A stretch of 64,000 nt of DNA from NCBI GenBank assembly GCA_902826615.1, contig CADEFN010000001.1, positions 868,001 through 932,000 on the forward strand, read 5' to 3'. Below, in pieces: positions 6,903-35,610 of this stretch (the first letter of the stretch is position 1; every line of letters starts with the position of its first letter). The translations under genes were made by a program, and so were the position numbers. This DNA is from an uncultured Gemmatimonadota bacterium (GTDB lineage: Bacteria; Gemmatimonadota; Gemmatimonadetes; Gemmatimonadales; Gemmatimonadaceae). The notes beneath the pieces are model-generated. The model made no database searches, was not told the origin of the DNA, and saw only the letters and a list, made by a program, of their open reading frames with translations.

Positions 6903-7038
6903 CCTTACAGGACGCTAACGTGGGGGGGCGGGGAGAGGGTAGCAAGAGACCGTAAGAGAGTGGCGGTTGGCGTCGTTCTCATGGCAGGAGCGCCGAAATG
7001 GCGCTCGGATCGACCCCAAATCCTCCAGGAGCACTTCC

Positions 7039-7713: not shown

Positions 7714-7735
7714 GACGAAACGCATCCGGAACGGC

Positions 7736-7762
7736 AGGGTCCACGGGCAAACGTGGGCCCTT
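7736..7762. terminator. Hairpin terminator between convergent genes
   Basis: Arms 7736-7745 (AGGGTCCACG) and 7752-7761 (CGTGGGCCCT) pair over 10 bp with one G-T wobble around a six-base loop and are followed by TTGTCGT. The hairpin sits between the stop codons of the barrel gene and the convergent sigma factor gene and could serve both. Confidence 0.65.
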
Positions 7763-7794
7763 GTCGTCTGCGGGTGTCCACGGCGCGTGATGGT

Positions 7795-8457
7795 TCAGAG
7801 GAAGTCCTGGGAGAGGCCGGACTGAATGAGATCCGAGGGACGCAATCCCATACGCCTGGCTTCTTCCTTGAGTTTGGTGCGCGCACGGTACAGCAGCTGG
7901 GCCACATTGTTCGCGGTGATGCCGAGTTGCCCGGCCACGTCCTGGTCGCTGTAGCCACTCATGTTGAGGAGCCAAACCTCACGTTGCCGTGGGGCGAGGC
8001 AGGCGGCCAGTCGTTCGATGAGGTCGGAGCGCTCAAAGGTGCGTCCGGTGGGTGCGCCTCCCGAGACATCAAAGTCCCCGGGGAGCTGGTCAGGCTGCCG
8101 TTTGCGCTGGCGTCGGCGATCGCGCAGCACGTTGCGGGCAATCACCCAGAGCCAGGCTTCGAACTTCCCCTGCTCCTCGTAGCCGATGAGGGCTGACGGG
8201 AGGCGCATGAAGACGTCAGTGAGGATGGAGTCGGCGGTGACGGTGGAGTCTTCGGCCCCAATACGCCGCAGCAGCGATGGACCGAAGCGTCGCTGCAATT
8301 CTCCCACATGACTTCGCAGGCTGTCTCGCGCCCCTTCGATGAGTTCGTCGAGCGGGAGCGTGTGCACCAGGAGCTCCATAGCGCTCGGTTCCGTAATCAG
8401 TCGTTTGCGATCGTCGTGTTCCGTCATCGAGGCCGAGGGACGAGGACGCTTCGCCAT
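7795..8457 (-). CDS. ECF RNA polymerase sigma factor
   Basis: A 220-residue ECF sigma factor. Region 2 is seen in ILTDVFMRLPSAL and FEAWLWVIARNVLRDRRRQRK; region 4 in LAPRQREVWLLNMSGYSDQDVAGQLGI, an HTH, followed by NNVAQLLYRARTKLKEEARR. The acidic region-2.2 motif is changed to TADSILTDVF, keeping one Asp. No anti-sigma gene is adjacent. The ATG at 8457 is the longest start; ATG 8427 is an alternative and neither has a strong ribosome binding site. It is divergent from the small lipoprotein gene at 8614; the shared 156-base interval is the likely promoter region. Confidence 0.85.
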   Translation of the reverse strand: MAKRPRPSASMTEHDDRKRLITEPSAMELLVHTLPLDELIEGARDSLRSHVGELQRRFGPSLLRRIGAEDSTVTADSILTDVFMRLPSALIGYEEQGKFEAWLWVIARNVLRDRRRQRKRQPDQLPGDFDVSGGAPTGRTFERSDLIERLAACLAPRQREVWLLNMSGYSDQDVAGQLGITANNVAQLLYRARTKLKEEARRMGLRPSDLIQSGLSQDFL

Positions 8458-8613
8458 GGGTGGCGCGCAGCGGGACTGCCGGTCACATGACTAAGCGCAC
8501 AAAACAATTCCGGTCGCACCAAAACGCGATGCACCGTAAGAAAAGTGTGGGAGCCGTCGTTCCCCGGGTGAAGGCGACGCTGACGTCGCTTCATCACCTG
8601 GAGGACGTGTCCC

Positions 8614-8793
8614 ATGAACGGCAGGATCTCGAAGTGTGCATGGTCGATTGCGCTTGTGCTTGGCACTGCGTGCGGGTCACCGACCGGCCCTCACGACCGC
8701 GGTCGCCGCTTGGAGGTGGAAAATCCGGTCAACACACCTATCAAAAGTGTGACAAGTGCGGACGCTTCGCCTGGTCGGCTGCCGACGCCGTGA
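8614..8793 (+). CDS. Small lipoprotein, 59 residues
   Basis: A short gene opening MNGRISKCAWSIAL and running through VLGTACGSPTGP: a positively charged start, a hydrophobic core and a lipobox-like GTAC with Cys at residue 20. GGAGG at 8600-8604 lies nine bases before ATG 8614, a good Shine-Dalgarno site. A small hairpin (arms 8574-8579 and 8584-8589) sits in the leader just upstream. The mature peptide is ~40 residues with no recognised domain. The gene ends three bases before the stop of the convergent fragment at 8797. Because it is divergent from the ECF sigma gene it might be a target of that factor; this is inference. Confidence 0.7.
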   Translation: MNGRISKCAWSIALVLGTACGSPTGPHDRGRRLEVENPVNTPIKSVTSADASPGRLPTP

Positions 8794-8796
8794 GGA

Positions 8797-9150
8797 TCAG
8801 GAAGTGCCTTCGGCATCGGGAAAGGGGCGCGGCGCAGGGGCCGCGCCTCGAGTCGCGTCAGGGCCGTCATCCGCTGCCTCGGATTTGCCCGACAATTGTG
8901 GGTCGAGGTGCGAGGGAAGGTCGATCGGGTCGCTCGATGACAAGAGGGTGGCAAGCACCGGTCCGATTCCGGCGTCGAGTGGGCCGGGGCCAGCCTGATC
9001 GGCCTCGAGAAGTCGCGCCAGCATTGCCGCCACCTTCGCGTCGCCGCCACCGCGTTCGATGACCAGGGCAGCCCGCTCCTCTTCGGACAGGCCCGCGGCC
9101 GCATGAAACAATTCGTTGACCAGCTGCCACTGCCGGTGCGTCAGGTCCAT
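8797..9150 (-). pseudogene. Stranded N-terminal module of a Ser/Thr kinase, kinase domain missing
   Basis: A 117-residue frame starting MDLTHRQWQLVNELFHAAAG. It matches in layout the N-terminal ~80 residues of the two TPR kinases in this window (MDVTPAEWQAIEEAFHELCD in one and the corresponding RWLRVRELFDLALEQP in the other). Those kinases then run into a G-P-Y sequence and a glycine loop. Here the sequence departs after LDPQLSGK into a low-complexity tail (AAPAPRPFPDAEG) and stops. No kinase motif appears in other frames downstream, where the small lipoprotein gene lies. It is best read as a truncated gene left after a deletion; a free-standing regulatory module is the alternative. Confidence 0.55.
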
Positions 9151-9256
9151 GAGGCTGCTGCGTTGCAGTTGGGGGCATGCCGCACCGCCCGTCGGTGCTG
9201 TCACTCTCAGTTGCGCAACAATGCGCGCCGGTCTGTCAGTGCTCGCGAAAAGGTGT

Positions 9257-11791
9257 CTACCGGGAGAGGGAGTCCCCGATTTCCCTCCGATAGCGCGACA
9301 CACTGGCGGTGTCACCCTGCTTCTCGCTAACGCTGAGGAGCGTCCGGCGGGCGGCCGTCATCCACGCGGACTGCGGGACCTTCTGGCCTGCAATGATTTC
9401 CAGGCCACGTTCGGCGGCGGTGCGGGCTTCCCGCAACCGGCCCTGACCAAGAAGGGCGCGTCCCAGTTTGACGTGATGGATGCCCACGTTGAGGTGTCCC
9501 GGAGGGAGTGTCTTTGCGTAGACGGCAAGACCGGCTCGCAATTCCCGCTCGGCTTCTTCGAATCGTCCGACGCTCGTCAGTGCCGACGCCAGGTTGCCGC
9601 GAAAGAGCCCGACGAAGTCATGGTCCTCGCCATATGTCGCGCGATAGATGTCGATGACGCGCTGAAAGAGCGGTACTGCGAGACTGTCGCGATCGCGGAC
9701 CACTTCGATATTTGCCATCTCGTTGAGCAGACTCGCCACCCGCGGGTGCGTGGGACCAAACACCTGCTCGCGCACGGCCAACGCCTTCCGGAATAATGCT
9801 TCGGCCTCGTCGTACCGCTGCAGCGCGAACAACGCGCGACCCCTCGCGGCCCACGCCGATGCGGTCTGGTGGTGATTCGGTCCGTACCATCGCGAGATGA
9901 TCTCGGTACCCCGTTCGGTGTACTGCAACGCCTCGTCGAATTTGCCGCGCTCCTTGGCGGTCGCGCCGAGGTTCAGCCAGGCATCGCCGATTTTGGGGTG
10001 GTTCTCCGGGAGCCGCCCGGGAGCGAAGGCCAGTACCCGCCGGCTGGTGGCGTCGGCACTATCAAACAGACTCTGATAGAAGCCTTCATTGCTCAGGTGC
10101 ATGAGCAGCTCGGCAAAAGCCACCGTGCCGGTGTCACCTCTGGCCACGTCGAACATGACGGCGCGCGACAGCGCGGCCGACGCGGAGTCGTGTGCCCCGG
10201 CCATCTCATGCACACGTCCTTTCGCTTCCCAGGCGCGGGCGAGGGTAACGCCCCCGACGTCGCTGGCGGCCGATACGGCCTCGCGGGCCAGCGCGAGCGC
10301 GGTGTCGGGGACGCCGCCGTCGGACTTGATCAACGCCTGTTCGGCGAGCAGGGCACTGCGCAACGCCGCGTTGGCGCTCACCCCTGGCACTGTACTCGCC
10401 TGGCGAAGCACCGAGTCGGCACGAGCGAGTTTGCCAAGCACCCGAAATGACGTGCCTAACGTGAGAAGGAGTTGGGCCTGCGCCGGGGGATCGTCGGCCA
10501 GCATGGCTGCCTCGCGCACACCACTCTCGAGGAGTGTCGTGACGCGCACGCTGTCGGCCGGACCCGCCACATTCTCGCCCCCCGACAGCAGGTTCAGCAT
10601 GAAACGCTCGATGCGTTGCACGCGTGCCGTCTCGCGTTGTGTTGCGCGATCGGCTTGAATGAGGCGCGCACCCACCAGCGCAGCCGCGATCAGCAGCACC
10701 GACACCGCCGCAATGCCGCGCCGGTTGCGATCCCCGAACTTGCGTAGACGATACCAGGTGGTCGCACGCCGCGCCTCGATCGGGCGTCGCTCGAGCCAGT
10801 GCTGGACGTCACGCTTGAGGGCCTCAGCGGAGGCATATCGCGCTTCAGGTTCGGCGGCGCGCGCCGTCAGGCAGATCAGGTCGAGGTCGTCCCAGTCCAG
10901 TCGAGCCGCCGACCGTGGCAGCGTGGTGTGAGTGGCCAGGGGAAGGCGTCCCGCCACCAGTTGATACAGCAGGACACCCAGGGAGTACACATCGCTCTGG
11001 ACCGACAGGCTCTGCCCGGCGCGTCGCTCCGGCGCCGCGTACGCCGGAGTGAGCATGCGGCCATCCTGATCCGACGCCACGCTACCGACCTGCAACCGCC
11101 CGGACACGCCAAAGTCGAGCAACCGCACACGTTGCGCCCTGTCCAGCAGGACGTTGGACGGTTTGATATCGCCGTGTACGACCAGTTGCCGATGTGCGGC
11201 ACTCACCGCATCGCAGATGTCGGCAAAGGTCTGCAGCCGAGCCCGCAGTGACCAGTTAGTGTCGAGGAGCGCTTGGCTGAGAGGCTGTCCCTCCACGTGT
11301 TCCATGGCGAACCAGGCGGTCCCGTCGTCCTGCACACCGGCGTCATACAGCGGCACAATCCCCGGGTGCCGTAACCCGGCCAGGATGCGCTGCTCTTCGG
11401 CAAAACGTTCGCGGCGACGCGGAGAGAGTGGGGCGTCCCACAACACCTTGAGCGCCACCCGAGCGCCCACATCCTCGCGCTCGGCCAGATAGACCACTCC
11501 CATCCCTCCTTCACCCAGGATTTCCAGCGCGCGGTACGGGCCGAAGCGTCCCTGCGGAATCTGGCCGGCACCCGACCCGTTCAGCACAGCGGCGGCGGTG
11601 CCGCTGAGGTCAGAGTCGGCGGGAGTCGCCGTACGCAGATCCGCCGCAAGCAGGGCAGCCACTTCGTGCGCGACGCGAGGCGCTGTTTGCGACAACCTCG
11701 CGAGTTGGACGTCGCGAGACTCCGGCGGCAGATCGCACAATTCGTGGAACGCCTCTTCGATTGCCTGCCATTCCGCCGGTGTTACGTCCAC
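9257..11791 (-). CDS. Ser/Thr protein kinase with TPR domain (non-RD, HGD motif)
   Basis: An 844-residue kinase. Residues 1-80 form the helical N-terminal module; the kinase domain begins at GPYRALEILGEGGMG (about 84-98) with catalytic K115, catalytic loop VVHGDIKPSN at 205-213 and DFG at 226-228. The usual HRD Arg is Gly, so this is a non-RD kinase that may not need activation-loop phosphorylation. A membrane helix follows at about 355-373 and then a long set of TPR-like repeats (for example ALFRKALAVREQVFGPTHP). The TPRs would lie outside the membrane. The gene follows an ECF sigma gene by 27 bases; the pair is repeated elsewhere in the window (31745-34967). Confidence 0.92.
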   Translation of the reverse strand: MDVTPAEWQAIEEAFHELCDLPPESRDVQLARLSQTAPRVAHEVAALLAADLRTATPADSDLSGTAAAVLNGSGAGQIPQGRFGPYRALEILGEGGMGVVYLAEREDVGARVALKVLWDAPLSPRRRERFAEEQRILAGLRHPGIVPLYDAGVQDDGTAWFAMEHVEGQPLSQALLDTNWSLRARLQTFADICDAVSAAHRQLVVHGDIKPSNVLLDRAQRVRLLDFGVSGRLQVGSVASDQDGRMLTPAYAAPERRAGQSLSVQSDVYSLGVLLYQLVAGRLPLATHTTLPRSAARLDWDDLDLICLTARAAEPEARYASAEALKRDVQHWLERRPIEARRATTWYRLRKFGDRNRRGIAAVSVLLIAAALVGARLIQADRATQRETARVQRIERFMLNLLSGGENVAGPADSVRVTTLLESGVREAAMLADDPPAQAQLLLTLGTSFRVLGKLARADSVLRQASTVPGVSANAALRSALLAEQALIKSDGGVPDTALALAREAVSAASDVGGVTLARAWEAKGRVHEMAGAHDSASAALSRAVMFDVARGDTGTVAFAELLMHLSNEGFYQSLFDSADATSRRVLAFAPGRLPENHPKIGDAWLNLGATAKERGKFDEALQYTERGTEIISRWYGPNHHQTASAWAARGRALFALQRYDEAEALFRKALAVREQVFGPTHPRVASLLNEMANIEVVRDRDSLAVPLFQRVIDIYRATYGEDHDFVGLFRGNLASALTSVGRFEEAERELRAGLAVYAKTLPPGHLNVGIHHVKLGRALLGQGRLREARTAAERGLEIIAGQKVPQSAWMTAARRTLLSVSEKQGDTASVSRYRREIGDSLSR

Positions 11792-22429: not shown

Positions 22430-22498
22430 TCGGTGGGGGTTCGCGGTGAGGGACCGCGCTCTACTTTAGGGCAGTCCCATCTCCCGCTTCGTCCTCAC

Positions 22499-25400
22499 AT
22501 GACCCACATCTCTCGTTTCTCGTTGCTCCTGCTCTTCGGCCAAGGCGTTCTGCCGGTCGTGGCGGGAGCTCAAGGTGCGCGGCCAGCTGCCCGCGCCGTG
22601 GCCATGGCGCCCATGGCCAATGTCGACACCATGCTCTTCAATGGACTCCGCTGGCGCGAGGTCGGCCCCGCACGGGGGGGACGCTCGGTGGCGGTTGCCG
22701 GTTCGGTCCAGCGGCCCAACGAGTACTGGATGGGCACTACTGGTGGCGGTGTCTTCAAAACCACCGATGGCGGACAAAACTGGGCCGCCGCGACCGACAA
22801 ATACTTCGGCGGCACCATCGGGGCCATCGCGGTGGACCCCCAGAACGCCGACATCGTCTGGGTGGGCGGCGGCGAAACCGACATCCGCGGCAACACCGCG
22901 GGGGGCGACGGACTCTGGAAGTCCACAGACGCCGGACGCACCTGGAGTTACCTCGGCTGGAAGTACGAACACATCTCCACCATCCGGGTGCACCCCACCA
23001 ACAACAACGTCGCGTGGATCGGGGTGTTCGGCGACCCGTTCCGTGCGGGTGACCGCGGACTCTACAAAACCGCAGATGGCGGCAAGACCTTCACCCGGGT
23101 TCTGCATGTCAACGACTCGACCGGCGTGATCGATGTCGCCCTCGACCCGTCCAACCCCGACGTGATGTACGCGGCGATGTGGCAGGCCTGGCGCTCCCCG
23201 TGGGGCATGTCGTCAGGGGGCATTCACTCGGCGATCTACAAGTCAGTGGATGGGGGCGCGACGTGGACCAATCTCATGAAGACGGCCAGGGGACTGCCGG
23301 CCGGCCCGGTGGGAAAGATCGGGCTGGCGGTATCACCGGCAAAGGCAAGCCGTGTGTGGGCCATCATCGAGCATGACTCGGGTGGGGTGTACCGCAGCGA
23401 TGACGCCGGGGCCACCTGGAGCTACATCAATCGTGATCGCAAGCTGCGCCAGCGTGCCTGGTACTACTCGCAGCTCGCGGCGGACCCGAAAGACACCAAT
23501 ACGGTCTATGCGCTCAACGTGGGCTTGTATCGCTCGCGCGATGGGGGCAAGACGTTCCGCGAGTCGATCAACGTGCCGCACGGCGACAATCACGATCTCT
23601 GGATAGCGCCTGACAATCCGCAACGCATGGTCGAGGGCAATGACGGGGGCGCCACCGTGTCAACCAATGGCGGGCGCAGCTGGACCGATCAGGAGTTTCC
23701 CACGGCGCAGTGGTATCACGTGGATGTCAGCAACGATTTTCCCTACAAGATTTGTGGCGCCCAGCAGGACAACTCCACGCTCTGCGGGCCGAGCCGCAAG
23801 CCGGGACGTGTGAATCTGAGCGACTGGGAGGACTCCGGTGGTGGCGAGTCGGGGTATGTCACGCCGCATCCCACCAAACCGTGGATTGTATTCGCCGGCA
23901 GTTATGGCGGTCTGCTGACGCGAAAGGACATGCGCACCGGCTTTACCCGCGATGTCACCGTGTACCCCAACAATCCGATGGGTGAGTCGTCGGAAGACAT
24001 CAAGATCCGCTTCCAGTGGACCTTTCCGATCGTGTTCTCACGGCATAACCCGACTGTGATTTACGCCGGAGGGTCGCGCCTCTTCCGTTCCACCAACGAA
24101 GGCGAAAGCTGGACGATGATTGGCCCCGAGTTCTCGCGTGCCGACAAACGCACCATGGGAGCGAGTGGTGGCCCGATCACCAAGGACCAGACTGGTGTCG
24201 AGACCTATGCCCTGATTTTTGCCTTTGACGAGTCACCGGTGAAACCGGGCGTGCTCTGGGTGGGCTCCGACGACGGCCTCGTGTGGGTGTCGCAGAACAA
24301 TGGTCTCACCTGGACCAATGTCACGCCAAAGGACATCGGCGATTTCACCCGCATCTCGATCATCGAGCCGTCCAGCTTTGACGCCGGCACCGCGTACATT
24401 GCCGCCAATCGGTATCAGCAGGGTGACAAGAGCCCGATTCTCTACAAGACCACAGACTACGGCCGCACCTGGTCGAAGATTGTCAACGGCATTGCCCCCG
24501 ATCACTTCCTGCGGGTGGTCCGCGAGGACCCCAAACGTCGCGGCATGCTGATGGCGGGCACGGAACGCGGTGTCTATCTGTCGTTTGACGATGGACAGAA
24601 CTGGCAGTCGATGCGCCGCAACCTCCCCCTCGTCCCGGTGCATGATCTGCGGTTCAAGGACAACGATATCGTTCTCGCCACACACGGGCGCGGTTTCTGG
24701 GTGATGGATAACATCTCGGCGTTGCGAGACCTGAACGCCACTGTCGCGGCCAAGCCGGTGCACCTCTTCAAGCCGGCCGAAGCCTACCGGACGGATTTCA
24801 GTGGTGGCTTCTTTGCGCAGCTCATGGCCATGATGGGTGGTGGGGGATCGCAACTTGGCGCCAACCCGCCGGGCGGGACGCTGGTGCAGTACTACCTGAA
24901 GGAGGCCAATCAGCGTGTGCAGCTCGAGTTCCTGGATGTCGCTGGCAAGACCATCAAGACCTTCACCAGCGAGCAGGACTCCGAAACCGCCGCCGACTCG
25001 CTGCGCATGGAAGGAATGAAAGCCGCCATGGCCGACTCCCTGGTGAAAACCGGTCTGGCGCGTGATTCGGCGGTCAAGGTGGCCACCGCTCGCATGAGCG
25101 ACCCGGCGACCCTGATGCAGATGGTGGATATCGAGGAGTTCTTCTCGCGTCCGCCGCGTCCCGCCCGGGTGCCTAACAAGGTCGGGCTCAACACCTTCTC
25201 CTGGGACATGCGGTATCCCGACGCTGAACGCTTTCAGGGACTCATCATGTGGGCGGCGGGCACCACCGGACCCCTCGCCCCTCCCGGGACCTTCTCGGTA
25301 CGCCTCACCGCCGGTGGAACCGCCGAGACGCAGACCTTCCGGCTGCGCAAAGACCCCCGCGCCGAGGCCACCGATGCCGACCTGCAGGAGCAGTTCCGCC

Positions 25401-25870
25401 TGCTGATGGCCATTCGCGACAAAACCACCGAAGCCAACAATGCCGTGCGCCTCGCGCGCAACATGCGCTTCAATGTGGACGATCGCACGGGCAAACTCAC
25501 GGCGCAGCAGCAGGCCGAGTTCAAGGCCATTGCCGATCGCATGATGTCGGCGGTGGCGGAGAACGAGAACGAGGTCTACCAGACGAAGAACCAGTCCTCG
25601 CAGGACCCGCTCAACTACCCTATCAAGCTCAACAACAAGATTGCAGCGCTGGCGGGTACGGTGAGCAGTGGCGAATACCGTCCCACCAAACAGAGTCGTG
25701 AGGTGTTCACCGAACTGGTCACCAAACTCGATGCCCAGACGCGGGCGATGAACAAGGTGATGGACGACAACCTGCCGAAGCTCAACGCCATCCTCAAGGC
25801 CGCGGGGCTCCCCGAACTCCGCAAAAGCTTCGAGGAGATCAAACCGGCCAAGCCCGCAGTGGCGATGTAA
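22499..25870 (+). CDS. Secreted BNR/VPS10 (sortilin-like) repeat protein
   Basis: An 1123-residue protein. ATG 22499 gives a signal peptide ending near AGAQG; the longer frame is rejected. Residues ~40-740 are BNR/Asp-box repeats of a beta-propeller, seen as SxDxGxTW-like units (STDAGRTW, SVDGGATW, STNEGESW, TTDYGRTW, SFDDGQNW). The remaining ~380 residues contain helical and Ig-like segments and a charged coiled region (ATDADLQEQFRLLMAIRDK). This layout is common in Gemmatimonadota, Acidobacteriota and Bacteroidota, and is often annotated glycosyl hydrolase, but no catalytic residues are evident. Periplasmic or cell surface. It converges with the kinase gene with no bases between the stops. 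Confidence 0.85.
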   Translation: MTHISRFSLLLLFGQGVLPVVAGAQGARPAARAVAMAPMANVDTMLFNGLRWREVGPARGGRSVAVAGSVQRPNEYWMGTTGGGVFKTTDGGQNWAAATDKYFGGTIGAIAVDPQNADIVWVGGGETDIRGNTAGGDGLWKSTDAGRTWSYLGWKYEHISTIRVHPTNNNVAWIGVFGDPFRAGDRGLYKTADGGKTFTRVLHVNDSTGVIDVALDPSNPDVMYAAMWQAWRSPWGMSSGGIHSAIYKSVDGGATWTNLMKTARGLPAGPVGKIGLAVSPAKASRVWAIIEHDSGGVYRSDDAGATWSYINRDRKLRQRAWYYSQLAADPKDTNTVYALNVGLYRSRDGGKTFRESINVPHGDNHDLWIAPDNPQRMVEGNDGGATVSTNGGRSWTDQEFPTAQWYHVDVSNDFPYKICGAQQDNSTLCGPSRKPGRVNLSDWEDSGGGESGYVTPHPTKPWIVFAGSYGGLLTRKDMRTGFTRDVTVYPNNPMGESSEDIKIRFQWTFPIVFSRHNPTVIYAGGSRLFRSTNEGESWTMIGPEFSRADKRTMGASGGPITKDQTGVETYALIFAFDESPVKPGVLWVGSDDGLVWVSQNNGLTWTNVTPKDIGDFTRISIIEPSSFDAGTAYIAANRYQQGDKSPILYKTTDYGRTWSKIVNGIAPDHFLRVVREDPKRRGMLMAGTERGVYLSFDDGQNWQSMRRNLPLVPVHDLRFKDNDIVLATHGRGFWVMDNISALRDLNATVAAKPVHLFKPAEAYRTDFSGGFFAQLMAMMGGGGSQLGANPPGGTLVQYYLKEANQRVQLEFLDVAGKTIKTFTSEQDSETAADSLRMEGMKAAMADSLVKTGLARDSAVKVATARMSDPATLMQMVDIEEFFSRPPRPARVPNKVGLNTFSWDMRYPDAERFQGLIMWAAGTTGPLAPPGTFSVRLTAGGTAETQTFRLRKDPRAEATDADLQEQFRLLMAIRDKTTEANNAVRLARNMRFNVDDRTGKLTAQQQAEFKAIADRMMSAVAENENEVYQTKNQSSQDPLNYPIKLNNKIAALAGTVSSGEYRPTKQSREVFTELVTKLDAQTRAMNKVMDDNLPKLNAILKAAGLPELRKSFEEIKPAKPAVAM

Positions 25871-27664
25871 CTACTTGAGGTCGAGTTTGCCGGAGGGCCG
25901 GAGGGAGCGCAGTCGCCACGAGTTGCCACTGCGCTCCAGGTCCGCGACAAACGAAGCACTGCTTTTCCGGTTGGCGCCGAATGCCGTCCGTGCGGTAAGT
26001 GTGGCGGCAAAGCGTGCCGTGGCCCGGCTGCCGTCGACGTCGATGTCCGGGGCGCCTGAGAGACTCATGCTCAGGCGCCCTTCGCGCATCAGCGAGATCC
26101 ACTGCGCTTCCGCGCCGCCCTGCAGCACACTCCCCACGAAGCTTGTGTTGCCACTACCGACCGCGTCGGCAAAGCGGTCCAGTGCTTCGGCGATACCAGC
26201 CGATGCAGCGCGACCGTTGTCAGGGGGTGTTCGCTCCTCCGGCTCCGGTGGCTGCGGTCGCACCGGGGTCTGCGGCTCCGGCTCTGCGACGGACGAAGGC
26301 TTGGGGTCGGTCCCTCCCTGCGGCGTCGGCGCAACCTTCCCGCTCTTCGGCGGTCGAACGGGTGCTGCCGCACGCTCGGCGGGGCGCAGCGTGACGACGC
26401 GCTCTGGAGGGTCGATTGGGGCGGGCACCACGCCACCAGCCGGAGGAAGGTCGGCGGCAGGCACGGTCGCGGGAGTTTCCGGTGTGCGTGCGCTGTCCGG
26501 CGCCTGCGGCACCACCGCAGCTGTGTCTGGTTTGTCATCACCGCCGGTCCGCGCCGGCGTGTCGTTCGGGTTCAGGATGCGCAACGCGACCGCCAGCACC
26601 GCGAAGAGGCCAGCCGTTCCGGCCCACGTGCGCCAATCCTCCAGCCATGCCCTGACGCGGTCCCCCGTGCCGATGGAGTGCCTCGCGTCACGCGAAGGCA
26701 CAACATCGGCGAGTTGCGTGACAGGCACCGCGGCCACGGGATGATCGGCAGTCACGGCGACTGGCGGTGTTGCGGCCGCACGCGCCGGGGTGGGTGGCGC
26801 GACGTCGGCAAGCCTGGTGGCTGGGGCCGGACGTGAAGGAGCCGTGCCCTGGGCGGCAATGGTCGCGCGAAAGCTGGCCGCGAGTGCGCGGGCGTTAGGC
26901 GCGCGGTCCTGGGGCTGCTTGGCCATCGCGTGCTGGATGAGCGCATCCACCGCGTCGGGCACGTCGGGGACGGCCTCGCGCACCGGCGGTGCCGGCTCAT
27001 GCAGCTGCTTCATCATGAGCTCGTAGTCACTGTCCGCCTCGAACGCCACACGACCCGTGATGAGTTCGTACACCACCGCGCCTAACGAATACAGATCGCT
27101 GCGCCCATCCACCTCCTCGCCGCGCAACTGTTCGGGGGACATGTACATCGGCGTCCCAACCGCCGCTCCCACGCGCGTCTGACGACTGCGCCCGAGAATA
27201 CGCGCAATGCCGAAGTCCATCACCTTCACCACGCCGTCGCGGGTGAGCATGATGTTGGCCGGCTTGATGTCGCGATGGACGACACCCTTGTCGTGGGCAT
27301 GATCCAGGGCATCGGCAACGGCGGCCGCAAGCTCCAGCGCACGCGGCCAGGCAAGGCGCCCAGACCGCTGCACTATCGACTCCAGTGTTTCGCCGCGGAT
27401 GAACTCCATCACCAGCACAGCGTCGCTCCCCGACCGCTCCAGCCCGAACACCGCCGCAATATTGGGATGGCTGAGTCGAGCCAGTGCCACCGCCTCCTGC
27501 CGAAAGCGTTCACTCAATGCCGCCTGCCGTGCGAGGTCGGGGCGCATCACCTTGAGCGCCACCTCACGATCGAGCATTTCATCGAGACCGCGATACACGG
27601 TCCCCATGCCACCATCACCGATCCGCTCGAGGATGCGGTAGTTGCCCACCGTGGTGCCGATCAT
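25871..27664 (-). CDS. Ser/Thr protein kinase, last gene of phosphosignalling operon
   Basis: A 597-residue kinase: glycine loop RIGDGGMGTVY, catalytic Lys in VALKVM, HRDIKPAN at 130-137, DFG at 150-152. The activation loop reads RQTRVGAAVGTPMYMSPEQ with T163 in a T-R-V-G setting that recurs in its operon partners. After the kinase domain (~265) comes a Pro/Ala-rich linker, a membrane helix at about 335-355, a long proline-rich stretch, and a ~125-residue C-terminal domain (DRFADAVGSGN, SNSWRLRSLRPSG end) that resembles periplasmic NTF2-like folds; that last point is a guess. ATG 27664 overlaps the PP2C stop (ATGA). Confidence 0.93.
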   Translation of the reverse strand: MIGTTVGNYRILERIGDGGMGTVYRGLDEMLDREVALKVMRPDLARQAALSERFRQEAVALARLSHPNIAAVFGLERSGSDAVLVMEFIRGETLESIVQRSGRLAWPRALELAAAVADALDHAHDKGVVHRDIKPANIMLTRDGVVKVMDFGIARILGRSRQTRVGAAVGTPMYMSPEQLRGEEVDGRSDLYSLGAVVYELITGRVAFEADSDYELMMKQLHEPAPPVREAVPDVPDAVDALIQHAMAKQPQDRAPNARALAASFRATIAAQGTAPSRPAPATRLADVAPPTPARAAATPPVAVTADHPVAAVPVTQLADVVPSRDARHSIGTGDRVRAWLEDWRTWAGTAGLFAVLAVALRILNPNDTPARTGGDDKPDTAAVVPQAPDSARTPETPATVPAADLPPAGGVVPAPIDPPERVVTLRPAERAAAPVRPPKSGKVAPTPQGGTDPKPSSVAEPEPQTPVRPQPPEPEERTPPDNGRAASAGIAEALDRFADAVGSGNTSFVGSVLQGGAEAQWISLMREGRLSMSLSGAPDIDVDGSRATARFAATLTARTAFGANRKSSASFVADLERSGNSWRLRSLRPSGKLDLK

Positions 27665-28521
27665 GCAGCGCCTCCCACCCGCGTGGTGCGCACCTCGCGC
27701 GGCTCGACGGCGACTTCGATGACAGCAACAGAGATGTTGTCAAACCCACCGGCCTCCCGCGCCAGCTCCACCAGCCGGTCACACGCCTCCTGCGGCCCCA
27801 GCGACAGCACCACACCGCGCACGACCTCGTCGGCGACCAGGTCGTACAACCCATCGGAGCACAGCATCAGGCGGTCTCCGGCGCGGAGACGGAGCGCCTG
27901 TGGCCAGTGCGTCACCTCCACTCTGCGATGGCTGCCGAGCGCCCGGGAGATGACGTTCTTGTCGGGATGCGAGCGTGCCTCCTCCCGCGTGATCGCGCCC
28001 TTGCGCACCAGCTCCATCACCGCCGAGTGATCCTCGGTCATGAGCAGGAGATCGTCGTCGCGAATCATGTAGCAGCGGCTGTCGCCGACATGGGCGCAGT
28101 ACGCCATCCCCTGCCGGATGAGGACCGCCGTGCACGTCGTGCCCATCCCTCGCAAACGCGGCTCTCGGTCGGCCGCGGCAAAGACCGCCGTGTTGGCCGC
28201 TTCCGTCGCCCGCACCAGCAAGGCATGACCGTCTCGTTCGGTGGCGTTGAGGCCGGCAAGCAGCGACTCCATGGCCAGATGGCTCGCCACCTCACCACCT
28301 TCGTGACCTCCCATGCCGTCGCACACGACGATCAGCATGGTGTCAGGGCTGGTGGCGGATTGCGCGATTCGAATGGCGTCCTCGTTGATGGCGCGGACGC
28401 AGCCGACGTTGGTGGCCACCCCCGTGACGATGCGCAACCCGCCAGGTGCTGCACGCAGCTCGGTGGTCGGGCGTACCACCTCGGCCGGCGAGCGGGAGAA
28501 CAACCGCGACAGAATACTCAT
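27661..28521 (-). CDS. PP2C-type Ser/Thr phosphatase
   Basis: A 286-residue PPM phosphatase. Metal-binding motifs are all present: INEDA at ~45-49, VVCDGMGGHEGGEVAS with D68, CAHVGDSRCY, MTEDHS, LCSDGLYD and FDNISVAV. It has no membrane segment and should be a soluble cytosolic phosphatase reversing the partner kinases. Its last residues (RTTRVGGAA) contain the same T-R-V-G as the activation loop of the next kinase. It overlaps the upstream kinase stop and the downstream kinase start by four bases each, so the three proteins are made in coupled amounts. Confidence 0.95.
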   Translation of the reverse strand: MSILSRLFSRSPAEVVRPTTELRAAPGGLRIVTGVATNVGCVRAINEDAIRIAQSATSPDTMLIVVCDGMGGHEGGEVASHLAMESLLAGLNATERDGHALLVRATEAANTAVFAAADREPRLRGMGTTCTAVLIRQGMAYCAHVGDSRCYMIRDDDLLLMTEDHSAVMELVRKGAITREEARSHPDKNVISRALGSHRRVEVTHWPQALRLRAGDRLMLCSDGLYDLVADEVVRGVVLSLGPQEACDRLVELAREAGGFDNISVAVIEVAVEPREVRTTRVGGAA

Positions 28522-29822
28522 GGAGTGCCTGACGAGAAGGAGGCAGCGCCTGCGTCGCTGCGAGGAGGAGCAGAGGGGAGAGACGATCGCTGCATGGTGT
28601 ACTGAAACTCATTCGGGCCATCGCTCACCTGGAAACGCTGCCGGAGATCCTCAAAGCCGGACTGCCGGAGGGTGACGTCGAGCCATTCGCCGATGGGTGC
28701 GTCCATGGTGAACGGAGTGTGGCCGATGACCGCGCCGTTCCGGAGCACCTCGGCGGTTCCCTCGAAGATCTTGATCACTACACTGCGGCGCTCCGGTTTT
28801 GACGGAGTCTGCCCGGTGCGAAGGATCCCGGTATCCGGGGCAGGATCAGGCGCCGGAGTGGGCACAACGGGGAGGGGCGCCGGGGCACAACAGAGCCGCT
28901 GGCTCTCCCGCCACACGAAGGTGCCTGCCACCAACGCCGCTCCTGCCGAGAGGATCAGTGACCACCGATGCCAAGGCGCGCGCGGGTTAAGGAGTGGTGG
29001 CGGGGCGAGCAGGCGTCTGACTTCGTCGCGCAACACACCGGCAGAGAGAAAGCGGTCCTTCGGGTCCACTTTCAGGCATCGGGCAATCAGGCGTTCGGTG
29101 TCAGCAGCGATGCCGGCATGGTGCAGCGATGGGGCCTCATAGGCGCCCTTGAGGATCCGTGCCATCACGACCGTAAAGGAGTCGCCGCGAAAGGGCACAT
29201 GTCCGGTCAGCATTTCATAGAGCAATACTCCCAGTGCCCACACATCCGACGCCGGGGTCACGGGCTCGCCCCGCACCTGTTCTGGAGAGAGGTAATGAAG
29301 CGTGCCCACCACACTGCCGTCTGTCGTGAGTTTGGGTGAGTCGGCCGCCTTGGCGATCCCGAAGTCGAGGAGCTTGAGCACACCCTGCTCGTCGATCTTG
29401 ACGTTGTTGGCCTTGAGGTCGCGATGAATGATCCCGCGATCGTGAATGTGGGCCACCGCGTCACAGAGAGTCGCAAACAACGGAAGCGCTTCACCGGGAC
29501 TCAGGGCCCCGTACTGGAGACGATGCTCCAGCGTGTGACCCGTGACGTACTCCATCACGATCCCCGGCCGCCCGTCGGTTTCGACCGTGTCGTACCAGGC
29601 CGCAATGTTCGGGTGCTGCAAGGTGGAGAGAATGCGCGCTTCGTTGCGAAACCGCTCGACAAATGACGGAGAGCGATGCGAGGTGGTGAGGATCTTGAGC
29701 GCGGCCACCTGGCCACTCTGGAGGTGTACCGCCCGGTACACCTCCCCCATGCCGCCGGCCCCCAGGAAATCGACCAGCCGCCAGGAGCCAGCGGTCCAGC
29801 GCAGGTAGGTACCGGCGGGCAT
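28518..29822 (-). CDS. Ser/Thr protein kinase with PEGA domain
   Basis: A 434-residue kinase. Kinase domain: FLGAGGMGEVY, catalytic Lys in AALKIL, HRDLKANNV, DFGIAK and GTLHYLSPEQ. A membrane helix lies near residues 285-303 (WSLILSAGAALVAGTFVW), preceded by a short linker. The extracytoplasmic tail ends in a PEGA domain (IKIFEGTAEVLRNGAVIGHTP), a fold often associated with surface sensing. GGAG precedes the ATG. It lies 15 bases after the FHA-protease gene and overlaps PP2C by four bases. It would phosphorylate Thr/Ser on operon partners, with PP2C as eraser. Confidence 0.93.
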   Translation of the reverse strand: MPAGTYLRWTAGSWRLVDFLGAGGMGEVYRAVHLQSGQVAALKILTTSHRSPSFVERFRNEARILSTLQHPNIAAWYDTVETDGRPGIVMEYVTGHTLEHRLQYGALSPGEALPLFATLCDAVAHIHDRGIIHRDLKANNVKIDEQGVLKLLDFGIAKAADSPKLTTDGSVVGTLHYLSPEQVRGEPVTPASDVWALGVLLYEMLTGHVPFRGDSFTVVMARILKGAYEAPSLHHAGIAADTERLIARCLKVDPKDRFLSAGVLRDEVRRLLAPPPLLNPRAPWHRWSLILSAGAALVAGTFVWRESQRLCCAPAPLPVVPTPAPDPAPDTGILRTGQTPSKPERRSVVIKIFEGTAEVLRNGAVIGHTPFTMDAPIGEWLDVTLRQSGFEDLRQRFQVSDGPNEFQYTMQRSSLPSAPPRSDAGAASFSSGTP

Positions 29823-29837
29823 GGGTGAACTCCGCTA

Positions 29838-31607
29838 CTACTTCGTGTTGGGTGTCACGGTCATCAGCTGCATGCCGAACTGGATCGGCACCGCAAAGCT
29901 GACCTGGGCATCGGCGGAACGGCCGGCGAAGTAGATCCCGATGACCCGCCCGGTGTTGTCGAACATCGGTCCACCGCTGTTCCCGCCGCCGGTCGAGTTG
30001 ATGGTGAGCTGGTAGCGGTCGCCGTACGGCGCATACGTCGCGTAGGCATCGGTGGCGGGGCCGTCGGCGGCACGCAGGATCTTGCCGATATTGCCGGCGG
30101 ACAGGGTCGGGTCGGGCACCGTACGCACCTGCGCTTCGCGATTGAAGGTGTCCTTCGACTTCACCACCGCCACCACTTCATCGGACAGACCGGGGTAGCC
30201 GAGCACCGTGACCTGGTCACCCACCTGCAGCGTTTTGTAGTTGTCGTTCAGCACGACCGGCTCGAGCGAGGACGGTGTTTCGATCTTCATGAGCGCCACA
30301 TCGTGCTGGTCGCTGACGCGCGCCACGGTAGCATCCACCGGGTTGGTATTCTTGCGGAATCGCACGTAGAGGTATTCCTGCCGACCACGAAACGCCTCGA
30401 TTTCGCCCTTGGGACCCGTTTGTCTCGTTTCCGACGGCACCCAGCGTTGCGGCGGGTTGGTGGTCATCACGTTCCCCTGCCGGTCCAGCAACACCTCGCC
30501 ATTCGCATTCACCAGCACGCCGCCATCGTTGTCCCCGAAGCGGTAGGGCGCGCGCCAGTTGGCGGCCACGTGACGGTTGGTCAGAATGAAACCCGTGCTG
30601 GTGACAACAAAACCGCTGCCGGATCCATTCACGGCGATCGGTGAACCGCTGCTGGCATCGAGCGTCAGGTACGGCTCCACCTGATCGTCAGTGACCGCGA
30701 TGTAGGCCGGAATGGTGCTGCCAGCGCCGGCGATCAGCGGCACGGTACGCCCGTTGCGAAGCTTGATGGCGTTTGGCACGTACCGGTGGAACACCTGAGC
30801 GCCGGTTGGCGCGTAGATCAGGTTCCAGCTGAAGTCGACGGCCACGGTGGCGTTGGAGTACCGTGCCGCGATTTCGGTGGGGGTGATCCCGGCGCGGGCA
30901 CTGTTGGCGCGGTTCACGCTGTCCAGCCGCGCGCGTTCGGCCTCCAGCTTGCGCTGCATCTCGCTCTGGCTGTCCTTCTTTTGCTGGTCCACATCGTCCT
31001 GCAGCCGGTTCTTCTGGGCCTGCGACCACGCCACCACGGCCATCAGCATCGCCGCGGCCACGCCGCCCACGAGTTGCAGCCGCCGGTTGGTCTGCCGCTT
31101 GGTGTCGGTAATCATGCGCTCGACGGTGGCCTTCCCGATGCCACCGGCCGGTGCACCGCCCACGGCCCCCGACACCGGCGCCGGCGCGGAGCCCACGCGC
31201 GTCTCGTTCACCTGGGCCGTCGCGCCAGGGGCGCCGACATTCCCGAGTCGCGTTGCCTTGAGGTAGGCAGCAGGCAATGGGTCGATATCAAACTGGATTT
31301 CAGGGCCGCCCGCGCCGAGCTGGATCACGTCCCCGGGCAGCAGCGGCATGTCGCCGACCACGCGAAGTTTGTTGAGATAGGTGCCGTTGCGGCTGTTCAG
31401 GTCCACCAGCTTGAAGCGGTAGGGGTCGTTCGGCTCGCGGACGATGCGCGCGTGCTGGCGACCCACCAGGTCATCCTTGTCGGGATCGAACCGGACATTG
31501 GAGCCGGGGTCGCGGCCGAACACGAGTTCGGCAAACTCCTGCAGGGGAAACTCTTCGAGCTGACTGGCCTTCGAGCCTTTCAGATGACGGAGAATGACGC
31601 GTTCCAT
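29838..31607 (-). CDS. FHA domain-trypsin-like protease fusion, membrane anchored
   Basis: A 589-residue fusion with three parts. Residues ~20-105 are an FHA phosphothreonine-binding domain (FGRDPGSN, GRQHARI, NSRNGTYLN). A linker holds KATRLG (T119) and NETRVG (T136). One membrane helix is at about 178-194, followed by a charged coiled coil (~196-232). Residues ~245-585 are a trypsin-fold protease with triad H346 (TNRHVAA), D436 (HDVALMKI) and S544 (GGGNSGGPMF), so it should be active in the periplasm. The FHA part faces the cytosol where the kinases act. First gene of a four-gene operon; its Shine-Dalgarno lies in a potential stem described separately. Confidence 0.93.
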   Translation of the reverse strand: MERVILRHLKGSKASQLEEFPLQEFAELVFGRDPGSNVRFDPDKDDLVGRQHARIVREPNDPYRFKLVDLNSRNGTYLNKLRVVGDMPLLPGDVIQLGAGGPEIQFDIDPLPAAYLKATRLGNVGAPGATAQVNETRVGSAPAPVSGAVGGAPAGGIGKATVERMITDTKRQTNRRLQLVGGVAAAMLMAVVAWSQAQKNRLQDDVDQQKKDSQSEMQRKLEAERARLDSVNRANSARAGITPTEIAARYSNATVAVDFSWNLIYAPTGAQVFHRYVPNAIKLRNGRTVPLIAGAGSTIPAYIAVTDDQVEPYLTLDASSGSPIAVNGSGSGFVVTSTGFILTNRHVAANWRAPYRFGDNDGGVLVNANGEVLLDRQGNVMTTNPPQRWVPSETRQTGPKGEIEAFRGRQEYLYVRFRKNTNPVDATVARVSDQHDVALMKIETPSSLEPVVLNDNYKTLQVGDQVTVLGYPGLSDEVVAVVKSKDTFNREAQVRTVPDPTLSAGNIGKILRAADGPATDAYATYAPYGDRYQLTINSTGGGNSGGPMFDNTGRVIGIYFAGRSADAQVSFAVPIQFGMQLMTVTPNTK

Positions 31608-31701
31608 CGTGGCGTGTCCTCGTGGGAATGGCAGCCGGGAGGGGGCTGCGGTGGCGGTTCATGCGGCCTTCGGAAAGACAAGCGCAGGAACCCACGAGGA
31701 C
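31608..31701 (-). promoter_or_regulatory. Structured leader that can pair the FHA-protease ribosome binding site
   Basis: In the minus-strand transcript GUCCUCGUGGG (31701-31691) is followed 64 bases later by its exact complement CCCACGAGGAC (31626-31616). The second arm contains GAGGA (31621-31617), nine bases before the AUG at 31607, so the stem would hide the Shine-Dalgarno. Inside the loop a second hairpin (arms 31649-31644 and 31636-31631) can form. I do not recognise a known riboswitch or thermometer class. The complementarity is seen in the sequence; the folding and its role are inference. Confidence 0.5.
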
Positions 31702-31744
31702 AGATCACGCGGCGTTCGGCCCCGGGCAGGCCTCGGTATCTGGG

Positions 31745-34265
<2,521 letters not shown>

Positions 34266-34273
<8 letters not shown>

Positions 34274-34967
34274 CGAGCTCTCGCTGCAGGAAGGCTTTGG
34301 CAAAGGTCCAGTCGCGTTTTACGGTCGCTGGCGAAATACCCAGTACCTCGGCCACTTCCTCCACCTCGAGCCCGCCGAAGAATCGCAGCTCCACCACACG
34401 GGCGTATCGCGAATCCACAGTGGCCAGCTTGGACAGTGCATCGTCGAGCGCGATCACATCCAGGGCGCGTCCGGCGTCGCCCGTGTCCGCGAGGGCATTG
34501 TCCTCCAGCGTTACGCGCTCTCCGCCCTCACGTTTGGCAGCACTGCGCCGTCTCGCGTGATCCACCAGGATGCGTCGCATTGCCTGCGCGGCCACCCCAT
34601 AAAAGTGGGAACGCCCCTGCCACGTCACGCCCCGCTGATCGCTAAGGCGCAGATAGACCTCACTCACCAGGGCCGTGGGCTGCAGCGTGTGTCCCTCGCG
34701 TTCGCCGCGCATGTAGTGCGCCGCGAGATCATGCAGCTCCTTATAAACGAGGGCGATCAGCTGCTCCGAGGCATTCTGGTCGCCTTGCTGCACGGCCAGC
34801 AGGAGCCGTGTGACTTCGTGGGATGGATCTGACGCCGACACCGGGGAATGCGCGAAAGGAGACGAACTCAGCACTAAGGAATCAGTTGCAACTAATGGAC
34901 CGCAAGGGCTCAGGGGTCCATGAGCCGTGCGGGCGACTTCCTTCGCCTGAAGGGAAGACCAGGACAT
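34266..34967 (-). CDS. ECF sigma factor, TIGR02999-type, kinase-linked
   Basis: Region 2 shows LQPTALVSEVYLRLSDQRG and HFYGVAAQAMRRILVDHARRRSAAKREGG; region 4 shows YARVVELRFFGGLEVEEVAEVLGISPATVKRDW. The usual DAED of region 2.2 reads QPTA, placing a Thr there as in kinase-controlled ECF43 factors. ATG 34967 is preceded by GGAGGAG six bases upstream, which decides this start. However, residues 1-42 are unlike the family and include two TTA codons in unusual context, so GTG 34841 is a real alternative. The downstream kinase gene overlaps by eight bases. The upstream end is only 22 bases from a divergent barrel gene. Confidence 0.88.
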
Positions 34968-34989
34968 CGCAACTCCTCCCCGACCCTCC

Positions 34990-35610
34990 ATGCGACGACC
35001 ACTCATTTTCCTAAGCGCCGTAACGTTCATAGCTGCAACAGCTTCCACTACTCACGCGCAGTCGGCACAGCGCTGGTCCCTGCAGGTCTCCGGCATCGGC
35101 GTTGGGGTCCAGGGGGAGGCCTACGAGGGTTTGTCCTCCGGCCCCGGTTTGGAGGCACAGGTCAGATTGACGCCCAGTGTCTGGTCGTTTGGCCTCGGGC
35201 TACAAGCCTCGACTCACTCCATCGACCTTGGCGACGGCAGCTCAGAGGACGTGGCACTCGCCGGGATTTTTCTCGAACCGCGCCGAGTCATCGATGTGGG
35301 CAGTTCCACCTTCGCTCCGTACGTCTCCGCACGCCTCTCCTTCCTGCAGCAGTCCCTTGAACTCGACGCCGGCAACGGTTCCACGGTGTCGGCGAGCGCG
35401 AGTGGCGCGCAGATCAATGGCGGAGGGGGCCTTCTGTTCCGGTTGTCGCCACGGGTGAACCTTGATCTTGGCGCCACCTACGGCCTCATCAACTTTGGTG
35501 ACGTCGTTGTGAGCGCCACTGGGCTGGGCACGGTGACTGTCGACGGAAGCTCCGGCACCGGCCGCAACCTGGTCATGCGACTCGGTCTGGCGATCGGGCT
35601 CGGGAAGTAG
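34990..35610 (+). CDS. Outer-membrane beta-barrel protein
   Basis: A 206-residue protein with a signal peptide (MRRPLIFLSAVTFIAATAS, cleavage after THAQ). The mature part is a run of amphipathic strands (LQVSGIGVGVQGEAYEG, WSFGLGLQAS, APYVSARLSFL, VNLDLGATYGLINFG) ending in LVMRLGLAIGLGK. It is a small barrel with no substrate clue. No purine-rich ribosome binding site precedes ATG 34990, which suggests leaderless translation or an upstream start. It is divergent from the ECF sigma gene and may be its target, but that is speculation. Confidence 0.78.
   Translation: MRRPLIFLSAVTFIAATASTTHAQSAQRWSLQVSGIGVGVQGEAYEGLSSGPGLEAQVRLTPSVWSFGLGLQASTHSIDLGDGSSEDVALAGIFLEPRRVIDVGSSTFAPYVSARLSFLQQSLELDAGNGSTVSASASGAQINGGGGLLFRLSPRVNLDLGATYGLINFGDVVVSATGLGTVTVDGSSGTGRNLVMRLGLAIGLGK

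Follow-up and report, generated by a model that had tools for sequence, protein, structure and literature searches.

Several described systems share individual parts with the gene cluster reported here. ECF43-type systems, in which an ECF sigma factor is encoded beside a transmembrane Ser/Thr kinase of the Hanks type, are represented by EcfP/PknT of Vibrio parahaemolyticus and EcfK/PknS of Xanthomonas citri. Their sigma factors are defined by the absence of the acidic DxxD motif from region sigma-2.2 and the presence of a Thr in a QTTA-like motif, and the description of these systems mentions neither FHA domains nor PP2C (PMC13147305). In the sigma-E/DegS pathway of E. coli, a membrane HtrA-type protease, an ECF sigma factor and an outer-membrane protein are part of one circuit. 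FHA domains beside Thr sites occur in GarA and OdhI of actinobacteria, a group that also has membrane-anchored extracytoplasmic trypsin-fold proteases of the MarP type. We know of no established case in which cytosolic phosphorylation controls a periplasmic protease. Searches of a paper library for FHA domains together with periplasmic proteases returned nothing beyond the isolated listing of an FHA-FHA-trypsin protein from Bacteroides thetaiotaomicron (NP_811686.1), given as a single case without operon or mechanism (PMC2605481).

Composition of the gene cluster

Within the window, i.e. the whole stretch of 64,000 nucleotides from an uncultured Gemmatimonadota bacterium that was analysed, four genes on the minus strand form one operon encoding, in transcription order, an FHA-TM-HtrA-type protease, a first kinase (K1), a PP2C phosphatase and a second kinase (K2). 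The original prediction placed four genes at 25871-31607, where all are indeed found on this strand, and held that the last three overlap by four bases; the overlaps are 4 nt at both K1/PP2C and PP2C/K2, while a gap of 15 nt separates the protease and K1 genes. These coordinates were nevertheless too narrow, leaving out three further members of the same unit, namely a TPR kinase gene, the gene for an ECF sigma factor and a beta-barrel gene in divergent orientation.

The serine protease (589 aa; 29838..31607, minus strand) matches the Pfam models FHA (5e-15) and Trypsin_2 (7e-20). Its FHA domain (residues 1-110; 31278..31607, minus strand) is predicted to be cytosolic, is modelled with pLDDT >90 and keeps G31, R32, H52, N74, G75 and T76. 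A disordered cytosolic linker follows (residues 111-176; 31080..31277, minus strand; pLDDT <50 at 117-184), containing the Thr motifs ATRLG (T119) and ETRVG (T136), then a transmembrane helix (residues 177-195; 31023..31079, minus strand), evident from hydropathy in 9/9 orthologs, and a predicted periplasmic protease domain (residues 239-589; 29841..30893, minus strand) supported by Pfam, Foldseek and the catalytic triad. The triad residues H346 (30572-30570), D436 (30302-30300) and S544 (29978-29976), on the minus strand, are conserved in all nine window-type proteins aligned. The Pfam domains, helix and triad uphold the earlier description of an FHA domain joined through a membrane helix to an intact trypsin-type protease. 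Hydropathy, the basic residues preceding the helix and the AlphaFold model, for which an alignment of 26 sequences gave a pLDDT of 76 and one of 9 sequences a pLDDT of 52, support a predicted topology with the FHA domain inside, a single transmembrane helix and the protease outside. Foldseek assigned the protein to the HtrA fold (rank-1 E 1.9e-12), its best matches including HtrA1, AlgW, DegP and DegS. Of the features of DegS and HtrA, the HtrA fold, the His-Asp-Ser triad and the N-terminal membrane anchor (9/9 orthologs) are present and the C-terminal PDZ domain is absent, with no Pfam match to PDZ in the protease and a score of 31 bits against the DegS model, the cut-off of which is 423.

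K1 (28518..29822, minus strand) is a Hanks-type Ser/Thr kinase with a weak transmembrane segment, which is predicted in orthologs, and a PEGA-like C-terminal region. It had been named a PEGA kinase; the kinase assignment stands (Pkinase 8e-59), while the PEGA match (E=0.006, 17.0 bits) lies under the cut-off of 20.8. The phosphatase (27661..28521, minus strand) is a cytosolic PP2C of the Stp1 type (NCBIfam NF033484, 244.5 bits, above the cut-off of 230), and K2 (25871..27664, minus strand) is a Hanks-type kinase (Pkinase 1e-52) with a transmembrane segment and an extracytoplasmic SnoaL_4-like domain. PASTA repeats, as in PknB-type kinases, were not matched in the operon kinases, which score under the NF033483 cut-off.

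Upstream of the protease and in the same orientation lies the TPR kinase (31745..34273, minus strand), a conserved neighbour with the arrangement kinase-TM-TPR, a likely ATG at 34273 and a reading frame open from 34303. This Hanks-type kinase directly follows the ECF sigma factor (34266..34874, minus strand; likely GTG start at 34874), which matches PF07638 (3e-57) and TIGR02999 (228 bits, above the cut-off of 126), and the pair is kept in relatives. Region sigma-2.2 reads LQPTALVSE, with the Thr (Thr67 when counted from the GTG) at 34676-34674; the acidic DxxD is absent, and LQPTAL with its Thr is kept in 9/9 sequences. Judged from this motif, the adjoining kinase and the TIGR02999/PF07638 membership, the sigma factor is probably of the kinase-activated type; no anti-sigma factor gene was recognised in the cluster. 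On the plus strand, the divergent gene (34990..35610) encodes a predicted outer-membrane beta-barrel protein whose match to OMP_b-brl (3.9e-5) is under the cut-off; the homolog at one related locus (L027) scores 1.7e-8. In 5 relatives its homologs, 50-68% identical, likewise point away from the cluster.

Conservation among relatives and a second class of module

The order protease-K1-PP2C-K2 is kept in relatives at 45-70% identity, and the longer order ECF-TPR kinase-FHA-protease-K1-PP2C-K2 is conserved in several genera, another family included; in three genomes where the ECF gene is not adjacent, it is located within about 15 kb. Separation of the four genes in all relatives would have counted against the original prediction; on checking, the cluster was found to be conserved. 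The arrangement goes beyond chance, because the identical order recurs in several other genera. It could be supposed that the kinases, phosphatase and protease are only co-transcribed and act on unrelated substrates. Direct evidence for mere co-location was not found, and the conserved order, the fusion of K1 to PP2C in two genomes and the recurrence of these components in a second neighbourhood, known from many genera, make such a loose co-location very unlikely.

When contigs were searched with the window protease alone, one named relative was returned, a Gemmatimonadetes MAG. A related kinase-PP2C-FHA-protease module is widespread in the phylum Gemmatimonadota, and matches to the FHA-TM-protease family were found in about a third of its sampled genomes. 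This second class, present in many genera, consists of a zinc-ribbon FHA protein, a kinase, PP2C and an FHA-TM-trypsin protein. It resembles the window's cluster in the domain order of the protease and in its kinase and phosphatase partners, but differs in gene order and in that the ECF-TPR kinase pair is not adjacent in the loci read. The two proteases are about 26% identical, and the canonical FHA Ser is kept in the second-class domains read. In a plasmid collection the window protease was unmatched, and the second-class protein gave only partial, single-domain matches.

In PADLOC the PD-T4-6 kinase and RT-protease models gave matches, which would accord with an anti-phage defence operon built on a kinase and a protease. 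These matches, however, reflect generic kinase and trypsin domains only, and the defence reading by PADLOC was rejected on that ground; the cluster is also kept among related genera and linked to an ECF sigma factor and an outer-membrane protein, with no partner of any known defence system recognised, so that a role in defence is hardly credible. A ternary conflict system with a trypsin peptidase (PMC7159879) was likewise set aside, since the cluster has no recognised partner of the MoxR, vWA or NTPase kind.

Candidate regulatory links

A promoter-like motif, TGATCTGTCCTCGTGGGTTCCTGCGCTTG, lies upstream of the protease ATG (31679..31707, minus strand). It is bipartite, 29 nt long and of fixed spacing, TGAGCC-N14-CTGCGCGTG, and with the same spacing it precedes the protease gene in 13/13 window-type loci examined (twelve distinct), against a background of about 2.6e-4 per 220-nt region. 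A second copy, with 2 mismatches to the consensus, is found upstream of the divergent beta-barrel gene (34921..34949, plus strand), and the motif precedes this gene exactly in 5/5 relatives. Across 7 window-type genomes the tight form of the motif has 16 matches, of which 9 lie at the locus, compared to 0.35 per other genome. The copies within the window are degenerate and their total there is not above chance; a loose pattern run across the window's genome gave 4 matches, as did the reversed-pattern control (4), and therefore no regulon is claimed in this genome. Several additional matches in relatives' genomes look intragenic. The motif may be a promoter common to the protease operon and the barrel gene. 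In view of the ECF/TPR-kinase pair, the beta-barrel gene and this shared element, the locus is better read as a kinase-driven envelope regulon than as an 'inside-out protease switch' standing alone.

The presence of a membrane HtrA-type protease in an ECF operon, alongside an outer-membrane protein with the same motif, resembles the logic of sigma-E/DegS (DegS: PMC8103513). Signalling might accordingly run from the outside in, the protease sensing misfolded envelope proteins and informing K2/PP2C or the TPR kinase via its linker and FHA domain, a site-1-like route into the ECF circuit, perhaps by cutting the extracytoplasmic TPR part of the kinase. The missing PDZ sensor domain and the lack of a recognised anti-sigma factor gene in the cluster make this quite unlikely, as does the fact that ECF factors of the kinase-activated type require no proteolysis.

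The motif T-R-[LVI] is strongly overrepresented in the protease linker of 9 orthologs (17 observed against 0.65 expected, reached by 0/2000 shuffles) and in the K2 juxtamembrane segment of orthologs (12 against 0.81), counts that come from sequences not independent of one another; in the extracytoplasmic control region of K2 it is not (1 against 1.5). In the window's K2 it occurs in the activation loop (T163) and twice in the juxtamembrane segment (T283 and T316). Enrichment in the window proteins alone is modest (p 0.004 and 0.012). At one locus, L028, the protease has the motif and K2 is without it in the juxtamembrane segment; K1 is absent there too.

The FHA domain is the most conserved part of the protease protein (mean identity of 76% to orthologs), exceeding the protease domain, and its binding-loop residues Gly-Arg, His and Asn (G31, R32, H52 and N74) are invariant in the aligned window-type proteins. 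Ser85 of Rad53 is counted among FHA recognition residues (PMC5549992), and the canonical phosphate-contact Ser (SxxH) is replaced by Gly in 12/12 window-type FHA domains (G49 here). The inside-out phospho-control initially proposed finds partial support, the predicted topology agreeing with it and the Gly at this position speaking against straightforward phosphothreonine reading by the FHA domain. This substitution would suit a purely transcriptional link, in which the TPR kinase-ECF pair has the protease and kinase/phosphatase genes made under envelope stress, the FHA is a degenerate interaction module and there is no phosphothreonine gating; the promoter-like motif by itself would explain co-expression. 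Such an explanation seems unlikely given the retained Arg, His and Asn-Gly-Thr, the better conservation of the FHA than of the protease domain, the Thr motifs in the adjoining linker, and the second-class protein, which keeps the Ser and likewise lies beside PP2C and a kinase.

The reading we favour, a serious possibility that stops short of being probable, is a phospho-wired envelope-response module, in which a membrane HtrA protease lacking PDZ would be under the control of phosphorylation by K2, countered by PP2C, and its operon under that of a kinase-activated ECF factor. The content and order of the genes, their conservation, the predicted topology, the triad, the enrichment of the Thr motif, the shared DNA motif and the ECF motif are read from the sequence; the steps that follow, whether phosphorylation, binding, promoter activity or control of the protease, are all inferred. 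The TPR kinase, with its TPR part outside the inner membrane, would sense an envelope condition and phosphorylate the ECF factor on the Thr of LQPTAL, as in EcfP/PknT, the phosphate supplying the negative charge needed for RNA polymerase binding. The sigma factor would then transcribe the barrel gene and the protease-K1-PP2C-K2 operon from the bipartite promoter. K2, and perhaps K1, would phosphorylate the Thr of T-R-[LVI] in the activation loop and juxtamembrane segment of K2 and in the FHA-protease linker, and PP2C would strip these phosphates. The FHA domain would bind one such site, either in cis within the linker that follows it or in trans on K2, and so shift the clustering or position of the membrane-anchored protease and thereby its activity on periplasmic or outer-membrane clients.

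This module is supported because the gene order is conserved, with K1-PP2C fusions, a motif at every window-type locus examined and Thr-motif enrichment; because an ECF factor without DxxD keeps its Thr and the barrel gene is divergent with the motif in 5 relatives; and because the FHA is the most conserved part and a second class repeats the kinase-PP2C-FHA-protease neighbourhood. It is weakened by the Gly at the FHA Ser position, the modest Thr enrichment in the window alone, the K2 lacking the motif at L028 and the degenerate motif copies of the window, not above chance there. The Gemmatimonadota cluster suggests, but does not prove, that intracellular signals control proteolysis outside the inner membrane.

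Comparison with described systems

The FHA-FHA-trypsin protein of Bacteroides likewise has FHA N-terminal to a trypsin-family protease, but with two FHA domains. The likeness to MarP-type proteases is weak (NCBIfam, 42 bits, far under the family cut-off of 250), and the window protein differs in its FHA domain and single transmembrane helix. As in GarA and OdhI, the FHA domain adjoins Thr sites that are candidates for phosphorylation by a Hanks kinase and FHA binding in cis; here, however, these are C-terminal to the FHA domain and of the form TR[LVI], not N-terminal ETTS, and a membrane protease would take the place of a metabolic regulator as the output.

ECF43-type systems share with the locus the replacement of the acidic sigma-2.2 motif by a Thr-bearing QxTA and the lack of a recognised anti-sigma gene, whereas here the kinase has TPR repeats, and an FHA-protease, two further kinases, PP2C and a barrel gene are added. 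The resemblance to sigma-E/DegS is by analogy: in the window there is neither PDZ domain nor recognised anti-sigma factor, a cytosolic FHA stands in place of the periplasmic sensor domain, and activation of the ECF factor by a kinase is expected.

If the proposed module is correct, a single locus gives a defined set of kinases, phosphatase, Thr sites, FHA domain, protease, sigma factor and promoter motif, and points to a function for the FHA-TM-protease family of a large, poorly studied phylum. More tentatively still, the locus might encode an envelope stress pathway in which Ser/Thr phosphorylation stands in for the anti-sigma factor as well as for the PDZ sensor, with a kinase-activated ECF factor controlling, and K2/PP2C gating from the cytosol through the FHA domain, a PDZ-less membrane HtrA protease; the FHA-TM-protease would then be an output device found in two classes across the phylum.

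The operon and its FHA-protease

As the original prediction had it, all four genes of the operon are found on the minus strand. Domain searches confirm an FHA domain joined through a transmembrane (TM) segment to a trypsin-type protease (FHA and Trypsin_2; 31607-29838), two Hanks-type kinases, K1 (29822-28518) and K2 (27664-25871), and an Stp1-type PP2C phosphatase (28521-27661), separated by two 4-nt overlaps and one 15-nt gap. K1 had been described as a PEGA kinase; the kinase assignment stands, but its C-terminal part is no more than PEGA-like (0.006, below the cut-off). The protease is intact, the catalytic triad being retained in nine aligned proteins of the window's type. Beside the operon end, a secreted Sortilin/BNR-repeat protein is encoded convergently (22433-25870, +), and a 66% identical homolog also follows the operon in a relative (L026).

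By structure the protease domain is HtrA (Foldseek best E 1.9e-12; HtrA1, AlgW, DegP and DegS among the matches), without a PDZ domain in the window protein. An AlphaFold model built from 26 sequences (mean pLDDT 76) consists of a confident FHA domain (pLDDT >90), a disordered linker (residues 117-184), a long helix comprising the TM segment plus coiled coil (185-238), and a protease domain modelled for the most part with confidence, its weak loops lying around 470-490 and 511-530. Conservation is highest in the FHA domain, with a mean of 76%; the corresponding means are 56% in the protease and 51% in the linker. In every window-type domain checked the canonical FHA Ser is replaced by Gly, while the remaining binding loops are invariant. 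This substitution is the chief doubt over the working model, in which phosphorylation read by the FHA domain would control the protease.

Window-type proteases show enrichment of a Thr motif, T-R-[LVI], in their cytosolic linker (17 seen against 0.65 expected from shuffles, 0/2000), as does K2 in its juxtamembrane segment (12 against 0.81), counts whose shuffles overstate independence as the sequences are related; in the window alone, p is 0.004 and 0.012. No enrichment is observed in the K2 extracytoplasmic part (1 against 1.5 expected) or with Ser-variant and reversed-motif controls. The motif also occurs in the window's PP2C tail (T280) and K2 activation loop (SRQTRVG, T163); by our own count the latter lines up with Thr171 of mycobacterial PknB, a known autophosphorylation site. 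This pattern, including the activation-loop site, makes K2 the best candidate kinase for the protease linker.

Distribution and gene order

The closest named record to the window protein is a Gemmatimonadetes MAG, and full-length window-type proteins occur in 8 of 249 sampled genomes of the phylum. The neighbourhood recurs: the order ECF sigma factor, TPR kinase, FHA-protease, K1, PP2C, K2 is read in loci L024 and L027, and in L030, from another family, with K1 and PP2C fused in a single reading frame (6834-9074, +). L026 agrees as far as its contig reaches, beginning inside the TPR kinase. In L029 the FHA-protease is followed by a fused K1-PP2C (8584-10740, +) and then a kinase, and the L028 cluster lacks K1; in L025, L028 and L029 the ECF is not adjacent, and a member of its subfamily is encoded no more than about 15 kb away.

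Some other genomes carry ECF, TPR kinase and a short FHA protein, without a protease. In an FHA-domain tree, poorly resolved inside this group, the short proteins join the window type (97/96), separate from a second class. Weakly matching PP2C-like proteins lie beside ECF-TPR kinase pairs in L031 (8883-9653, +) and L130 (near 5807, -), the latter with the promoter-like motif just upstream.

Second-class FHA-TM-trypsin proteins are shorter, at about 460-500 aa, and share about 26% identity with the window protein; a pattern check over 12 rows, one of them unread, finds the canonical FHA Ser retained in 11. With one member as query, 91/249 genomes and 46/112 genera matched at E<=1e-20, including some fragments or protease-only matches. 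In the loci read, the gene comes after PP2C and kinase, often preceded by a zinc-ribbon FHA gene. Both types occur in G167, a genome of another family, and none of the family's seven window-type genomes in the sample gave a second-class match. Given this spread and these neighbourhoods, kinase-PP2C-FHA-protease is a theme widespread across the phylum, and the window represents a version of it linked to an ECF circuit.

Several second-class proteases (e.g. L072 5939-7366, -) read DELA opposite the window-type catalytic-Asp HDVA, others VDLA; judged by eye, Glu seems to occupy the catalytic Asp position in the DELA forms. The window's genome also encodes an FHA-TM-SLT transglycosylase protein (G000:C1 near 1140455; L038, 9399-10799, +), its second architecture of cytosolic FHA and extracytoplasmic enzyme.

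The proposed ECF circuit and known systems

The pattern TGA[GT]C-N16-TGCGC-N-T[GC], of constant length (29 nt), starts 73-126 nt ahead of the protease ATG in 13/13 window-type loci examined, 12 of them distinct since L049 duplicates the L023 stretch. Across whole genomes this loose form has a background of about 1.2e-6 per position and strand, which amounts to 2.6e-4 for a region of 220 nt. Seven window-type genomes contain 16 matches to the tight form, TGAGCC-N14-[CT]TGCGCGTG; 9 of these fall at the locus, where 0.009 would be expected by chance, and 101 other genomes of the family hold 35. The case for the motif rests on the relatives, because in the window itself the copies are degenerate and the pattern, taken there alone, is not above chance.

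An opposite-strand copy precedes the divergent β-barrel gene (34990-35610, +). The barrel proteins of the window and five relatives share about 50-68% identity, and that of one relative passes Pfam OMP_b-brl. The constant spacing and location of the motif point to an ECF promoter, which the window's ECF sigma factor (likely 34874-34266, -; TIGR02999, 228 bits) would read. The longest ECF ORF opens at 35048, and its extra stretch (34874-35048, -) runs into the barrel gene; the conserved domain and motif position suggest a GTG start at 34874. Twelve matches to this factor, counting itself, occur in its genome at E<=1e-15. In three relatives, from three genera, a tight match is found 5-56 nt upstream of a gene whose product is a large surface protein of Ig-like or lipoprotein-like type (L123 2038, +; L124 2923, -; L128 3008, -), and these genes are possible further regulon members.

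Precedents exist separately for ECF-kinase pairs, for FHA/kinase/PP2C clusters and for membrane HtrA proteases. A literature search of limited coverage found no description of a kinase/phosphatase-linked FHA-TM-protease; a 2008 survey lists a single FHA-FHA-trypsin, without mechanism (PMC2605481). Kinase-activated ECF43 factors have a σ2.2 region with Thr in place of the acidic DxxD (PMC13147305; PMC8999054). The window's ECF, with LQPTALVSE in σ2.2, likewise lacks DxxD and retains the Thr (9/9), and so matches the pattern of these factors at this motif.
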